Notes under the pieces: generated by a model
The model's input: the letters and a program-made list of their open reading frames with translations, nothing else
Database searches by the model: none
Told to the model about the DNA's origin: nothing
Shown here: positions 35,704 to 43,893 of the stretch, in pieces
Layout: each line of letters starts with the position of its first letter
How positions within the stretch are numbered: position 1 is the stretch's first letter
Position numbers and translations under genes: made by a program
Assembly (NCBI GenBank): GCA_026419775.2
Contig: JAOPGA020000496.1
Coordinates: 117,096 to 181,095, forward strand
DNA length: 64,000 bases
From: Acrasis kona
Lineage: Eukaryota > Heterolobosea > Eutetramitea > Acrasida > Acrasidae
Direction: 5' to 3'

Positions 35704-35760
35704 GTGTCAGGAACTCACAAAAAAAACGATGCTGTTGACATCGTTTCTGCTACTCGCTTA
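35704..35760 (+). repeat. Functional copy of the duplicated 57-bp gene start
   Basis: This is identical to 32522-32578 except for one base (GACATC versus GACATT). Here it leads into the complete receptor gene, so this is taken as the parental copy. Confidence 0.85.
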
Positions 35761-38550
35761 TGTGAACATGATTGCGGCACAATTATCATGGAGTCCATGC
35801 TCAACGTACAGATTCGCTACCAAGGACACTTACAGGGATAGGGAACCTACATCTACTTCTTGCGCCACTGTTTATGTACCATATTACCATAATTTTATAA
35901 CGGACAAGTACTTGAATGTAAGTATGAAGAAGTACTCTGCATCGGAGTCTCTAGGAACTGTTATTTTAATTGGAGATACCATACCAGTAAGAATCTCACA
36001 TTCAGTATTTGACATTTCAAGCTTAATAGCGGAGCTGGAGTAGAAAGAGTCGCCACCAGATTATACAACACTCTTTCTGGTGTGTATGACATAATTGTTC
36101 CTGAATTTAGAGGCTCAATTTACAATTGCTCTGTATATTACAACTACGATGCAGTCGCTCAGGATTATTGTCAAAAAAGACACTTTGACGACTGGTCAAA
36201 TTCTGCCGCATTCTCAGTTGATCAAATTGCATTTGACATTGCTCACATCATCAAGTTAATAAAATCACAAAACAATCAAAATGTCACTTTGTTCGGCAGA
36301 GGCGTTGGCTCATATGTGTTACATCGTGTATTGCAACTAAATAACTCAATTGTTGATGCAGTCATTATGGATGGTGTTTGTGCAGGAAAATACTGCAATG
36401 CGTCTGATTGGGATGTTCAAAGAGATCAAATGGGAAAGAAAATCCTAAATCAACTATTCAGAGCCACTAATTCCACTTCCAAACACTTATTTTCTACATT
36501 CTCTTATGAGCCTGTTAGTACTTTTAAAACACTATTAAGCAGAGTCAAGGGAGGATTTGAAACTTGTGGTAGAACCATGAGCAGACATGATTTTCGAAGA
36601 AAATCAACTTTTATGTTATTTGATACTACATTACGTCCGTGGTTTCTTTCTGCATTATTCCATCTTACTAGATGCAACTATTGGGACTACTCAATAGGAT
36701 TCATAACATATAGAGGATCCATGGTTAATGATTACTTCAGGGACATCACCACCAAAGATATTTCATTCTTGAGTTCGAATGTTATTATATCTGAACTATA
36801 TAATGGTGCACCTGATGAAGAATCATTATTGTTTAGTCAAGAAATGCCTACTTATATGGAGGGATTGAAGAAACAAGGATGGAAGGCATATAATACTACG
36901 CTACGCAATGAAATTGCTGCGTTTAATAAACCAATGCTATTTTTGAATGGTGAGTATGACCCCATGTCAACAATCCAAAGTGCAACAGGATTTGCATCAC
37001 ATTTTAATCAATCAACATTGATTATTCTACCAGGAATGACGTCTGACACGTTCATGAAATCATATGTACGTGGTCAAAGTCAAACGTTTACTTGTGGAAT
37101 GGATATTGTTGCCCAGTTTATGAAATGTCCTACCTGCAATCTAAATAAAGCATGTATACAAAATATGGAGGGTTTGACATTCGACGGAGACGACATTACA
37201 AAAAGAGTACTTGGAGATCCATTTCTAGTGCGCACAGACTTGCCGCTCCTAACAATTGATATAATTAATTTAGTTATATACAGCATTCCAATACTTGTTC
37301 CAGTTATCATATGGATCCTCTTGTTTGTGTTTAGAAAAAATACACGTGTAAAATCAAGAGCTTATGGTCCGATTTTCGGGTTGGCATATGTGTTTTCAAA
37401 CTGTCTTTGTTTCTTGGTAATTGCAAACGCTTACACTTCAATCACAGGTATTTTATTTGGACAAATTGTTTATGATGTCTGTATTGCAATTGCAGCTACG
37501 GTGGTAGCCGCACAAACAATAAGATTTTATCTTTTAAGCACCATGTACAGTGTCATTACTTCCAACTCAAACTCTGCCAAGTTATTGAAATTTTTAACAA
37601 ACAAAATATTTTCATTAATTATTTTCATTGTGGTGGGTGTGTTCTGGTCTATATTTGGTTTGATTATCTTTGTCATCTCATTTTTTATTGACTTTAATGC
37701 TATTCAGGTGTTTGGCTCGCCAGTTATTGTTTTTAGTGTTTTGGTAATGATTGTTGCGTTATTGTTTTTCTTTTATGATTTTATTACCTTTTGTACAAGA
37801 ACAAATTGCAACTTGTCAAGTTATTTTACCTCTGATCCGCTGCTGTTTAGACTTGATAGCATTTTGATTTTACCAATCATTGTAACTGGTGTCACTAGCA
37901 ACATCATCTTCGCAACAATAAATACTTCATACACCGATCTGTATATTGCCTCAAATATTTTAAACGCTATATTCATGCTTTTGTTATGTTTGTTCTTGGG
38001 TGGTAATGTATCTATAGCTTGTATTGTTGACGCGGTAAGAGGCTCTAGTGAGAGATGGGTAAATTTTGAAGGTGATGATGTTACGCTGAAATTTTTACAT
38101 AGCGAGGTCGGGATGGCTGCACTATTAAAATATTCCGAGAAGGAATTTAGTTTGGAGAATGTGGTTGCTTATAGTGATATTAATAAAACTCTGAAGAGTA
38201 CCGACAGTAATTTAGATGCTGCTATCTTATCTGTACAGACAAAGTTCATGTTAAGAACAAGTGCCATGGAACTGAACGTTGCTCATGATGTTGCTCAGAG
38301 CTTCGATAACTTGATGAACAATCTTCCAAACTCGACGAGAGATGAAAAAAACAAAGTGTTATCAGATGTCCAGCAGGCAGTTCTCGTCAATATCAAGGAC
38401 ACTATGGATAGGTGAGTAAAATATTAGTTTAAAGGAAACTTACCTTATTATAGGTTTAAATTTACTCGCGAGTTCGAGGAGTGCGAACGCATTATGAACC
38501 TCAGTGAAGATGTAACCAAAGCCATGGATTTTGGAACCCTAAAAAATTGA
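35729..38550 (+). CDS. Secreted (inactive) alpha/beta-hydrolase ectodomain fused to 7 TM helices and an RGS domain
   Basis: Exons 35729-35986, 36022-38411 and 38454-38550 (introns 35 and 42 bp) encode 914 residues. A signal peptide (MLLTSFLLLAYVNMIAAQ) precedes an ectodomain of about 470 residues with the fold of S33/TAP-type hydrolases: DIIVPEFRG, the nucleophile elbow LFGRGVGSYVL (residues 176-186) and the acid strand FLNGEYDPMS (Asp399). The nucleophile position is Gly180 instead of Ser, and the expected His near 425 is replaced by MTSD. The domain is Cys-rich and N-glycosylation-rich, as for extracellular proteins. About seven hydrophobic helices follow (500-750). The cytosolic C-terminus (about 777-905) looks like an RGS domain: FLHSEVGMAALLKYSEKEFS-LENVVAYSD and the later VAHDVAQSFDNL helix. 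It is inferred to be a ligand-sensing receptor that accelerates G-alpha GTP hydrolysis. Confidence 0.75.
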
Positions 38551-39044: not shown

Positions 39045-42000
39045 TTATTTTGGAAGGGTTTTCATAATATCATCATATTCGGATTGGGTGAGATGAGTCA
39101 AAATAGTCATGGAAACACCAGGTTCAGATTCAATGATCAGATCGGAATCCATCCGTTCCACGCTACACTTTGTACTTTCAGTATTGACAGTTGAACTCGT
39201 TGTTGTTCTTCTGTAGGAATCCCTCATGGTATTCTGTAGGCTCGTCATATCACTTTTGGCTTTTTCCAATTCCATCTCCATCTCATTAATAATAATTTTT
39301 TGCTTCTTGATCTGCGTGTCTTTTGATTCCAGCTTTATCTCTAAATCCTTCACCTCCTTGGTTAATTTTTGGTTACTGTCTTCTACGATCTTTGTTTGTG
39401 CTGAAAATTGTGCGGTCAACCTGGCGCTCAATTCACTCCTCATGGCAACAATCTTGTTCTTGTATTGATTTGATGCGGCGTTATGGTTGTCCTTGATTTG
39501 TGATATCTCTGCCTCCATGCTTGCAATCCTTGTTTTCAAATCTTGAACCAATTGATCTTTTCTTTGTAATTCTGATTTTAACTTTTTGGTCTTGTCGTCG
39601 CTGTCCCTGCATTTTGATAAATCATTTTCTAATGTTTTGATCTTTTCTGCATCTTGTTCCTTTTCTGATTTGTACTGCGATGCTAATTTGTTCTTTCTAG
39701 AGGCTTCTTCTTGAGCAATGCGCAGGGATTCCTTCAACGTGGTGGCGGTGTTGACCAATTTATTCCATTCCTCGTTACTTTGTTGTGATTTGTTAGTCGA
39801 GTCTAAAAGTTGTGCCTTGAGACGATCTCGATGTTTAACCAACTCGGAGTGGTTCTTTTGTAACGTCGATAATTTCTCATTAGCCTCCGCTAACTTGACT
39901 TGTACTTGTTCTGCATGTGCCACCAGGGATTCCTTTTCTTTGGTGAGAGTGGATACTTTTTCTTTGGATGTGAACATTTTGTTTCGTAGTTGGGCCGTGC
40001 TAGATTGTTCTTCCTTGTATATTTGTTCGTGTGCAGATTTATATTCGTTGAAGCTGCTCTCTAATTTGAATAGATCGTCCGAGAGTCGTTGAATGGTTTC
40101 GTTGGCTTTGGATAGTTCCATCTCGCTCTTGTTTTTCGAAAAGATTAATTCTTCATTGATGGCCTTGTGTTCTTCTTCCCTTCGCTCTAAATCTTGTTTG
40201 ACGTCTTGGAGGTTATTGGATACCATTGCTTTGGTGTCCTTGTATTTCTTTAATGAATTGGATAATTTCTCCTTGTCTCTTTTTAATTTATCAATGGTGG
40301 CCTCGAAGGCAGGAACCTTTAATTCTAATTCCAACCGCAGGTCATCATTCTTTTCTCTTAGGGATGTGATCGCTGCCAATAGACGCTGACTGTTGAGTTG
40401 TTCTTGTTGGATTGTTTCTCTGTTCTTGTCTAGCATTTCTGTCTGTAGCACATTCTTCTTGTCCATGTCATGTTCGCTCTCCCTCAACGCTCTCCTTAAT
40501 TCTTCTACGAGGTTACAAGCTTTGGTTTTTTCGTCCTTTTGTGATTCTAATTGTTTGTTGAGATGTGATACTTCCTCTCTCATCGTGTCAAGTTCATGGT
40601 TGAGTTGATCGATCTTTACAATCAATTTTTCTTGATCTTGGTCCATGACTTGTTTGTACCTCGACTGAATTTCCTTCTCTTCATCTAAAACCTCCTTGCT
40701 ACGCGCTTTGATCTGTTTTAATTCTCTTTCTCTCATTTTGATTCTGTCCTCTAGAATGGCAACACTTCTTTTAGAATTCTCTACGATTGATTTTTGATTT
40801 TCTACTTCCTTTGATAAAAGTTGTTCTCTCTTTCGTAACGATTCTAATTCTTGATTTGTTTTTGATAATAATTCTTGATCATTTTTACGATTTTTTTCAA
40901 TGTTTTCTTGTTTGACTTGCTCGAACTTTGATTGTAATTCCAAAATCTTTTCTTCGTATTTCTTTTTATCCGACTGGAACTGAGATTTCATGCTTTCTAT
41001 TCTGGAGTGTTGTAATTCTGTAGCACTCTTGATTTCATTTTCCAAAGTGTTTCTAATTTCCTCTTGTATTTTCTTGTTCACATGCTCTTGTTGTTTTTCT
41101 AATTTTAATTTCCTTCTGTTTGCTGTTTCTAATGGATCGGAATCGGTCATGGTTGATTTGTTGATCTTTTCAAACGTTGCAAAGTAATCTACATCCTCAT
41201 TAGAAGGTGCGTTTCGTAATTGTCTTTCCGTGAGCAGCTGTCCTTGAACTTTATTTAATTCGGATTGTAAGGATAATAATTTGGAGTGACACTGAAAGAG
41301 AGGTAGTTGATCAATGTTTGGATCCTTGATCTCATTCGAAGATTTTTCTTGTTCGGAATGGGTGGCCCTCATCATTGTTAATCGTTGCTTTGCAGCAGAT
41401 AATTGTTGCATCAGTATGTTCTGGTTTAATTTGAGTGCGACAATCTCACGCAAGTGAATGTGGTCCTGATGATCTTTTGAATGGGACAATTCATTTAATT
41501 TCTGATCGACTTGGGACTCTAATTCTCTGTGCCATTTTTCAACTCTCGTGGAGAACTTCTTTTCGACTTGTTTGATTGCTTTTTGCATCTCTATGTTAAG
41601 GGATTGTACTTCTAGTTTTGCTATCGCAACTTCACTCTTGCTATTGTACAATTGCCTTTCCAAACTCATCAGTTGTTGATTTGTTTCCAATAATTGATCT
41701 GATAATAATTGTATTTGGTGCTTATAAAGTACGATCTGTGAATTGTAATTATTTTCTTGTCTCTCATTTCGACCTCTAAACCTAGATTCTACAGTTGATA
41801 ATTTGTGCTCCGAAAGTGTACAGGAATTTGATAATGTTTCAATGCTTGTTCTTTGTGAAGTAATGACACCCTCCAACAGAGATATTTCAAATTCCAATGT
41901 TTTGGTTCTGACTTGCTCCGAAACGTACTTTAGAGCGAACTGTTGACAATGTTTGAGAATGGGAATCATCCAAAGTTTGATTTCTTGAGAGGCCATCGAC

Positions 42001-43893
42001 CACGACTCTGAGGCAGCCGCATCAATTCTTAATAATAAAGTACTCATCATGTTCATCAACTCTTCGTATTCTTGTTTGAGTTCTTTTCTGACGCATTGTT
42101 CCTTGACGTTACGAAGTGCAGCTTGATGTGCTTGTCTTTCTATTTCTGTCGACTCCAGATGTCTGGATTGTTGGTTTTGTATTTGAAGAGTGAGACCTTT
42201 TGTGATTTCGCATTGTTCAAGGTATCGTTCGGTTTCTTTGGTCAACTGTCTGTTTAAACTTGCAATTGTGTCGTCCTTGGTGGAGAGTTGTTCCTTGATG
42301 GCACCAATCTCTTCTGATTGGACGTCACTCACCATGAGCTGTTCTTTGTACAATGATTCCAATTGAATGCGATGGTTTTGCTCTCTTCTTAAATGTTCTT
42401 TAGAAGACGAGAGTTGACTTTGAAGCGAATTAATTGCACGATCTAAACTCATATCCTGAGAGATTCGAGAATTTAGATTAAATGTTACATTTACTAGTTC
42501 TTGACGAACGTCCTTCTTTCCTTTGAGTGCATCTACAGTGTCTTTAAGGTGGTTGTAGCGAATTTGTAACTCATCGTTCTCGCTTTGGATTAGCTCCATT
42601 TTGGATTTGACGTCATCATCGACAGGATTCGTTGCGTTCTTTTTACTCGCTGTTGAAATCAGTAGTTTGTCTAACTTTTCTACATTTGTTCTTAGTGTGC
42701 GATTCTCCTGCTCTAATTTGTTTTTTGATAACATCAAATTTTCGATTTGTGCATTTTGTTCAAGAATGGTATCTCTGTATCCCTTGTCATCTTTATTTGA
42801 GTTTTTTGTTACAGTGCTGACGAGGAAACTTCCCTCTTGAACGCTATGTTGCATGGTTAGTTCTGAAATGCTCCTTCGTTGCTCCGATATGATTTCTTCG
42901 AGTGTATCTACTCGTGTACGAAGTTGTTCCTTTTCGAGAATGACATTTTCATTTTCCAAGATGTGTGTTGAAATGTATTTTTTAATCTCGGCATCTCTTT
43001 CACTGAGTTTTGCTTCAAGATCATCGATAATGTCATTCAATCGGTCACTATTTGTTTTTGTCTTTTCGATTAATTTTTTTTCGTGTGCAGTTTGTTTTTG
43101 GAATTTTCCTTCTACTTTCTTTAGTTGGTCTGTTAAGGCTTCAATACGTTCTTGTTGATCTCTATTTACAATTTCTAATCCTCTGACGTCCGATAAAAGC
43201 TCTTCCTCTCTCTTCCTAGATGCATTCTTGCAATGCGTTAGTTGTTCTTGAACTTCTTTAATTTCGTCTTCAAGAACATCTTTTTTTTGTATGGCATGTT
43301 CAGCTTCGTACAAGAGTTCCACACTCTTGAGTCTTTCTTGAATTTCTGCCGTTAATAATTGACTTTTACCAAGTTCGATTTGAAGTGCTTCGATTTGTGC
43401 ATCCCTATCCAGTAATATACCAAGGTATTGGCGCTTGGTTTCAGGACTAAATTATGTTATTAACTAATTCTTGTTTGCACTTACTCAATCTCGGAGTCCA
43501 TCTCACATGTGACAATGGTTTCAGCGGTAAAGTTTCGCGGGAGTGACGAAACCAACCAGTTATAAATAAAGTAGTCAACCCAAACAATGGTAACAAACAC
43601 AACAACATCACTTTCGTAACTATGAAATAGAGTGCGCTATTTAGTTTTGAATCTCTTCTCTTCGTTATTCTTTTAACGATATGTACTTGCACCTACATCC
43701 ACGCATACAGAGCAAGTTTGTTGGATTCAAATAAAAGAGGGTACGTACCGTTCCTTGTATCAACTCTAACATATAGACTACGTGGACTTTTATGGAAGTC
43801 TGCAAGAATCGGAGAAAGATTAAGTCCATATGTTTCACTTTGTTGCATCGCTATGGCTTTCAGATTATTATTCTTTAGTTCAGGATAAAACAT
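39045..43893 (-). CDS. Large coiled-coil protein, 1577 aa, with a folded N-terminal domain
   Basis: Exons are 43893-43697, 43619-43485 and 43446-39045. The 77-bp intron (GTAGGT...TTCATAG) and the 38-bp intron both keep frame. Residues 1-110 alternate hydrophobic strands (RSLYVRVDTRNGTYPLLF, DVVVFVTIVWVDYF), suggesting a beta-sandwich, possibly C2-like. From about residue 130 to 1500 the protein is near-continuous heptad coiled coil rich in Glu, Lys, Gln and Leu; a non-coiled tail follows. This is the style of centrosomal, ciliary or Golgi tether proteins. No family can be named because coiled coils are not diagnostic. A shorter model from ATG 43501 is possible, but the upstream exons read well and are in frame. 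Confidence 0.75.

Follow-up and report, generated by a model that had tools for sequence, protein, structure and literature searches.

We analyzed a 64,000-nucleotide stretch of the genome of Acrasis kona, an amoeba that forms fruiting bodies (Heterolobosea; contig JAOPGA020000496.1, positions 117,096 to 181,095 of the forward strand; hereafter, the window) and found that a gene at 35729..38550 belongs to a family of proteins that probably represent a previously undescribed type of receptor. Its product of 914 amino acids (aa), referred to as the window protein, is predicted to consist of a signal peptide, an alpha/beta-hydrolase ectodomain, seven transmembrane helices (7TM), and a regulator of G-protein signaling (RGS) domain, in that order, and our analysis confirms this arrangement, which had been proposed in a first-pass annotation. 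We give a probability of about 0.55 to the reading that the family members are receptor GTPase-activating proteins (GAPs), in which a dead hydrolase pocket outside the cell would control GTPase acceleration inside it. A receptor appears to be the best reading because both the architecture and the losses of catalytic residues are conserved in paralogues and in relatives outside the A. kona genome.

After removal of two introns, the gene coordinates of the first-pass annotation gave an open frame of 914 aa. The features of the gene, with their window positions and strand, are as follows:

35729..38550 (+): whole gene of the hydrolase-ectodomain 7TM-RGS protein, 914 aa; open frame after two short GT-AG introns
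35729..35986 (+): exon 1, residues 1-86; signal peptide (about MLLTSFLLLAYVNMIAA; cleavage point placed by eye) and start of the ectodomain
35987..36021 (+): intron 1, 35 nt, GT-AG, phase 0
36022..38411 (+): exon 2, residues 87-882; remaining ectodomain, 7TM, and most of the RGS domain in one unbroken frame
38412..38453 (+): intron 2, 42 nt, GT-AG, interrupting codon 883
38454..38550 (+): exon 3, end of the RGS domain and stop; also present in the deposited protein
35780..37233 (+): ectodomain, alpha/beta-hydrolase (S33/TAP-like) fold by homology, with intron 1 inside
36301..36303 (+): Gly180, at the nucleophile position (GRGVGS), where all 4 distinct related hydrolases have Ser
36958..36960 (+): Asp399, at the catalytic-acid position; retained by all 13 distinct members
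37042..37044 (+): Ser427, where related hydrolases have the catalytic His (counted manually on the alignment)
37240..38040 (+): seven membrane helices, with hydropathy peaks from near residues 504, 536, 563, 619, 652, 700, and 736
38089..38520 (+): RGS domain, residues about 776-905, with intron 2 inside; placed by Pfam, family profile, and invariant residues

Hydropathy analysis of the window protein gave one signal-peptide-like peak and seven hydrophobic peaks, in agreement with the signal peptide and the roughly seven helices proposed earlier. The ectodomain of approximately 470 residues contains 12 Cys and eight N-x-S/T sites. The Pfam RGS model matched residues 777-879 (E = 5.7e-4, 20.7 bits), and two hydrolase models, Abhydrolase_1 (E = 0.003) and the TAP-like Abhydrolase_4 (E = 0.015), matched under their cut-offs. 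Because the Pfam scores fell below the cut-offs and a phmmer search of the window protein against PDB returned no match at E<=1, the domain evidence from this single sequence is only suggestive. Pfam 7TM families gave no match to the window protein at E<=1, and no NCBIfam model scored over its cut-off across the six proteins scanned.

We then compared the protein with its relatives, denoting loci in the A. kona genome (37.35 Mb, 1021 contigs) as L0xx and database proteins as P000x. Nine further A. kona loci, eight of them distinct, matched the window protein across the same architecture, and their spliced local models (L010-L018) were 878-926 residues long. Outside this genome, four database relatives were found, P0002 (934 aa), P0003 (810 aa), P0004 (933 aa), and P0005 (813 aa), which shared 25-36% identity with the window protein; P0002 was at most 38% identical to the A. 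kona loci fetched. Counts below refer to 13 distinct members, namely the window gene, eight paralogues, and P0002-P0005, with L016 left out as a near-copy of L015. The models of L011 and L012 start within the ectodomain, and P0003 and P0005 are without the N-terminus. The near-identical pairs L015/L016 and L020/L021 (the latter among the hydrolases described below) lie on separate contigs and are probably uncollapsed alleles or recent duplicates.

The occurrence of a hydrolase and an RGS domain in one protein is settled, because both pass the Pfam cut-offs in P0004 (Abhydrolase_1 50.5 bits, RGS 30.6), narrowly in P0003 (Abhydrolase_1 26.0, Abhydrolase_4 22.2, RGS 24.8), and in L012, a single unspliced A. 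kona frame (RGS 38.2, Abhydrolase_4 30.0, Abhydrolase_1 28.6). The profile searches against S33/TAP and RGS families suggested by the first-pass annotation were thus positive for these relatives, with the window protein itself below the cut-offs. The full fusion is also present in the database proteins P0002 and P0004. Across the 13 members, the Pfam RGS model scored over its cut-off in six, below it at E<=1e-3 in five (including the window protein), and more weakly in two (L010 and P0005), while Abhydrolase models scored over their cut-offs in four (P0003, P0004, L010, and L012), several members having been scanned without their first exons. Seven hydropathy peaks followed the ectodomain in 7 of the 8 distinct paralogue models; L014 had six, across a doubtful join, and L017 had one additional peak within the ectodomain. 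The TAP-like model PF08386 hit only two loci in the genome, both of them family receptors (L012 and L011). P0003 and P0004 carry the source name “pimeloyl-ACP methyl ester carboxylesterase” though they are hydrolase-7TM-RGS members, and this name is misleading. When the 7TM-RGS half of P0002 was used as the query, only P0002 and P0003 were recovered and even the window protein was missed, so that this search was too insensitive to judge Naegleria.

The RGS assignment, weak in the window protein, became firm at the family level. A profile built from eight members matched 35 PDB sequences at E<=1e-3, with RGS10 as the best (3.4e-8), and only two of the 35 were without an RGS name; the last 140 residues therefore carry RGS similarity, as had been claimed. 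The EFSLEN motif, Asn838, Asn876, Asp879, Thr880, and Arg883 are invariant in 13/13 members, and presumably these residues cover positions that contact G-alpha. Chance similarity, whether of the RGS or of the hydrolase domain, was considered and rejected by the profile comparisons.

To place the ectodomain, we used six A. kona loci that match it without the 7TM-RGS part (L020-L024 and L026). The distinct hydrolases L020, L022, L023, and L024 retain QGGPG, GxSYGT, Asp, and His in 4/4 cases (L021 being a near-copy of L020), and none has a 7TM or RGS match. They share most Cys positions with the receptors, and hhalign aligned the receptor-ectodomain profile to these intact hydrolases with a probability of 99.9 (E = 1.8e-32), which bears out the Cys-rich alpha/beta-hydrolase ectodomain proposed for the window protein. 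A mixed profile of receptors and hydrolases matched TAP-like enzymes in PDB, namely TnmK2 (8g5t, E = 9.3e-5), 8e18 (E = 1.1e-3), and Hip1 and carboxylesterase A (both about 0.015), although these matches are weak; a three-sequence hydrolase-only profile (A7) found none at E<=1e-3.

The catalytic residues are eroded throughout the receptors. Based on alignment columns, the catalytic His is present in 0/13 and the Asp in 13/13 distinct members, and no ectodomain column has His in more than 6/13, so that a conserved compensating His was sought but not found. The GGPG loop, which serves as the oxyanion motif, is missing in all 11 receptors covering that region. At the nucleophile position, seven of the 13 have Ser (P0003, P0004, L012, L013, L014, L015, and L017), five have Gly (the window protein, P0002, L010, L011, and L018), and P0005 has Tyr, with a less certain alignment. 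Thus, the losses of the nucleophile Ser and of the His first noticed in the window protein are real, the latter position being occupied by Ser427, with Asp399 kept. Their use as a combined mark of ligand binding held only in part; both losses stand, whereas the Ser loss does not mark the family, since Ser persists in more than half of the members and those with Gly do not form one clade. Judged from the alignments, the hallmark of the family is the loss of the His and the oxyanion loop, with Ser-to-Gly replacement variable.

A phylogenetic tree of the ectodomain separated receptors from intact hydrolases by a strong branch (100/97 with all rows), which remained after removal of the long rows P0005 and L026 (100/100). 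A single clade of the five Gly members was rejected under the model (approximately unbiased test, p-AU = 2.6e-73). The test did not decide whether the window protein groups with its eight A. kona paralogues or with the relatives from outside that genome (p-AU = 0.141). The simplest account is that the His and the oxyanion loop were lost first and Ser repeatedly afterward, with weak deep branches in the A. kona group leaving room for reversals.

Mean conservation was 0.52 in the ectodomain, 0.47 in the 7TM region, and 0.46 in the RGS domain. Conserved ectodomain columns were enriched near the former active site (18 of 64, with windows covering 52 of 408 columns; p = 3e-4), as were, mildly, receptor-specific conserved residues (5 of 15; p = 0.03). 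Among the latter are elbow residues, namely Arg179 (11/13), Phe at 181 (11/13; Val in the window protein), and Ser183 (13/13). This enrichment favors a retained binding site rather than decay, as far as alignments can suggest.

Two features of the Cys pattern and one further locus were also observed. Toward the end of the ectodomain, residues 455 and 458 form a CxxC motif that occurs in 12/13 receptors and in 0/4 intact hydrolases. The Cys pair 206/211 of the window protein recurs in P0002-P0005 and in the hydrolases, but its eight distinct A. kona paralogues have all lost it. L026 (C226:126015-130166, - strand) is S33-like, keeps Ser and Asp, has no His at the aligned position, and ends in a C-terminal hydrophobic peak; it is possibly an independent single-pass pseudoenzyme, with a gene model that is doubtful at its 5' end.

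We further investigated the origin of the membrane core. The A. kona genome also contains a plain 7TM-RGS gene, L030, which shares membrane motifs (DPLLFRLD...) with the receptors (hhalign, 89%). Because of this related membrane domain, the receptors probably arose when a 7TM-RGS core acquired a hydrolase domain. Another multi-transmembrane RGS protein, L001, was tried and rejected, as its membrane part does not match the 7TM of the receptors. A TMEM164 match in P0005 fell below the cut-off (18.2 bits vs 25).

RGS domains are abundant in A. kona. Out of 202 candidates, 150 RGS matches were scored, and 74 G-alpha matches were counted exon-wise, 48 of them over the cut-off. At least six helices lie ahead of the RGS domain in 5 of the 30 RGS loci that we read, a non-random subset consisting mostly of long frames. 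Scanning 18 RGS frames, plus L052 and L065, for Pfam sensor domains revealed CHASE and RGS in one frame, both over the cut-off, in L002, L005, L048, L051, L053, and L063; CHASE4 with RGS in L059; and the MHYT membrane sensor with RGS, all over the cut-off, in L054 and L064, the latter also with PAS. CHASE was under the cut-off in L065 and L067, and no sensor domain over the cut-off was found by Pfam in L001, L030, L052, L055, L056, L057, L060, L062, and L066. The CHASE region is flanked by two hydrophobic peaks in L051, L053, and L063, and 7 of the 33 CHASE matches in the genome sit at RGS loci that were read. In A. kona, RGS thus seems to serve as the output of several types of sensor, which supports the receptor-GAP reading. 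No CHASE-RGS fusion was reported in the parts of the open-access literature searched. For Naegleria gruberi, 229 RGS genes and more than 30 G-alpha have been reported (PMC5784254). In the paper on the A. kona genome, word searches of the main text found no mention of RGS, CHASE, or AKO1_007922, the deposited model of the window gene (PMC11589745).

The closest known systems share the core of this design. For the plant protein AtRGS1, a 7TM domain joined to an RGS box has been described (PMC12017998), and a role as a sugar-receptor GAP for a self-activating G-alpha has been proposed (PMC3386157). The window protein resembles AtRGS1 in that a C-terminal RGS domain comes after seven membrane helices, and differs, as compared by description, in the signal peptide and the hydrolase-fold ectodomain that precede the 7TM region. 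Within the same phylum, Heterolobosea, 28 7TM-RGS proteins are known from Naegleria fowleri, and several of these carry EGF-like repeats, lectin domains, or GPS motifs. For three of them, the isolated RGS domain acted as a GAP on at least one G-alpha; a fourth RGS was not assayable, and some G-alpha self-activate (PMC9283941). The core design is the same, and several members of that set also have large ectodomains. Unlike that set, again by description, the family described here carries a hydrolase ectodomain, and the word “hydrolase” is absent from the main text of that paper. Large-ectodomain 7TM-RGS proteins were therefore already known in Heterolobosea, and the novelty is limited to the type of ectodomain. 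The claim that the combination is new stands to that extent, no hydrolase-7TM-RGS protein having been reported in the parts of the open-access literature searched.

A hydrolase-fold pseudoenzyme that acts as a sensor does, however, have a precedent. The gibberellin receptor GID1 has an alpha/beta-hydrolase fold in which the catalytic His is lost and Ser and Asp contact the hormone (PMC3531792). The family here resembles GID1, by analogy, as a hydrolase fold without catalytic His turned receptor, and differs in that GID1 signals via DELLA and an SCF complex rather than through 7TM-RGS and in that Ser is often gone as well. GID1 is a relative of hormone-sensitive lipase and belongs to a different hydrolase family. 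As another comparison, the TAP-like enzymes with known structures differ from the receptors, which are without the His and the GGPG loop and often without the Ser, and the intact A. kona hydrolases, which have the same fold and most of the Cys, keep the full set of catalytic elements and lack the 7TM and RGS parts.

Taken as a receptor-GAP, the protein would work as follows. A secreted S33/TAP-like serine-hydrolase domain would have been joined to the 7TM-RGS core and probably lost catalysis early. Because it kept the fold, most Cys positions, and the nucleophile-elbow region, the most likely role of the ectodomain is ligand binding, and the ligand may resemble an ester or a peptide, as would be expected of its enzyme relatives; binding without cleavage is proposed from the analogy with GID1. 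The signal peptide and the seven helices predict that the hydrolase part faces outside and the RGS domain is cytosolic. Binding would then be relayed by the 7TM bundle to the RGS domain and alter the rate of GTP hydrolysis by G-alpha. In cells with a self-activating G-alpha, as argued for plants (PMC3386157), the regulated step would be the off-switch, not the on-switch.

In favor of this mechanism, the putative G-alpha contact residues are invariant inside while catalytic residues are lost outside. Several points weigh against it. Since Ser is retained in 7/13 distinct members, inactivity has to be argued from the His and oxyanion losses alone. The RGS score of the window protein lies below the Pfam cut-off of 23.9. 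The 7TM profile found no match in PDB at E<=1, which leaves signal transfer through the 7TM region unsupported. The active-site windows of the enrichment test were chosen by the analyst, and part of the conservation around the active site is a fold constraint common to enzymes. Overall, the first-pass interpretation as a receptor is partly supported, with ligand binding and GAP activity predicted from sequence.

Among the alternatives, the ectodomain may instead be an adhesion or partner-binding module, with the RGS domain responding to cell or matrix contact rather than to a soluble ligand. Neuroligin is a precedent, in which a dead hydrolase fold is used for adhesion. We consider this unlikely, although several points speak for it: eight further distinct paralogues could reflect diversified recognition, A. 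kona is an aggregative amoeba (PMC11589745), and the EGF-like, lectin, and GPS features of several N. fowleri 7TM-RGS proteins recall adhesion G-protein-coupled receptors (GPCRs) (PMC9283941). The clustering of conserved columns at the old active site and the presence of the family outside the A. kona genome point away from it, although adhesion would still be compatible with both. It is improbable that the ectodomain, at least in the Ser members, is still an enzyme that uses another general base and couples substrate hydrolysis to G-protein signaling. The persistence of Ser and of the invariant Asp would fit such an enzyme, and the strigolactone receptor DAD2 hydrolyses its own ligand (PMC3531792); however, no member has the His or a common substitute for it, the oxyanion motif is found in 0/11, and the window protein has Gly as nucleophile. 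We likewise give little credence to a constitutive 7TM-anchored GAP whose ectodomain serves folding or trafficking only. Membrane anchoring alone could raise GAP efficiency, and ligand control was not seen in any result of our analysis, but mean conservation is no lower in the ectodomain than in the other two parts, and A. kona has an expanded set of family members.

Finally, a gene-model artefact or pseudogene, with the hydrolase and the 7TM-RGS parts belonging to two genes, is very improbable. It could be suspected from the deposited “hypothetical protein AKO1_007922” (P0001, 550 aa), which is identical to residues 365-914 of the window protein. That model begins at Met365 and thus omits most of the ectodomain together with the signal peptide (window 35729-36855). 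Against an artefact, exon 2 lies in a stop-to-stop frame of 800 open codons that bridges the hydrolase, the 7TM region, and most of the RGS domain, and the probability of such a frame by chance is about 1e-23 at the composition of the window. Intron 1 has phase 0 and a shared alignment column in 8/9 paralogue models (7/8 without L016), the exception being L017, where it is one column off, and the same fusion is present in P0002 and P0004. No intron was found at the position of intron 2 in the nine paralogue models. The two-gene reading was rejected on the basis of the single frame, the conserved intron 1, and the full-length relatives, so that the hydrolase and membrane parts are, on sequence evidence, not separate genes; the database model of AKO1_007922 is shown to miss most of the ectodomain.

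In the surroundings of the gene, six frames were scanned with Pfam. Three encode a topoisomerase, Pus10, and an SNF2-like protein, and the other three had no match at E<=1e-5. A 1425-aa frame at 39045-43322 (- strand) looks coiled-coil-like by eye and had no Pfam match at E<=1e-5. Rfam gave nothing at gathering scores within the window.

The family adds a pseudoenzyme sensor to the 7TM-RGS design. The nine distinct A. kona genes and their relatives allow direct tests of receptor-controlled G-protein deactivation, and members with Ser or Gly at the nucleophile position make the transition from enzyme to receptor testable within one family. We tentatively extend the receptor-GAP reading to a new class, in which a dead S33-hydrolase pocket would sense a soluble peptide- or ester-like signal and gate the RGS domain via the 7TM region, as one of several Acrasis classes with interchangeable sensors (hydrolase-7TM, CHASE, CHASE4, and MHYT) joined to RGS. 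If this is true, signals would be read largely via G-alpha deactivation rather than through exchange-factor GPCRs.

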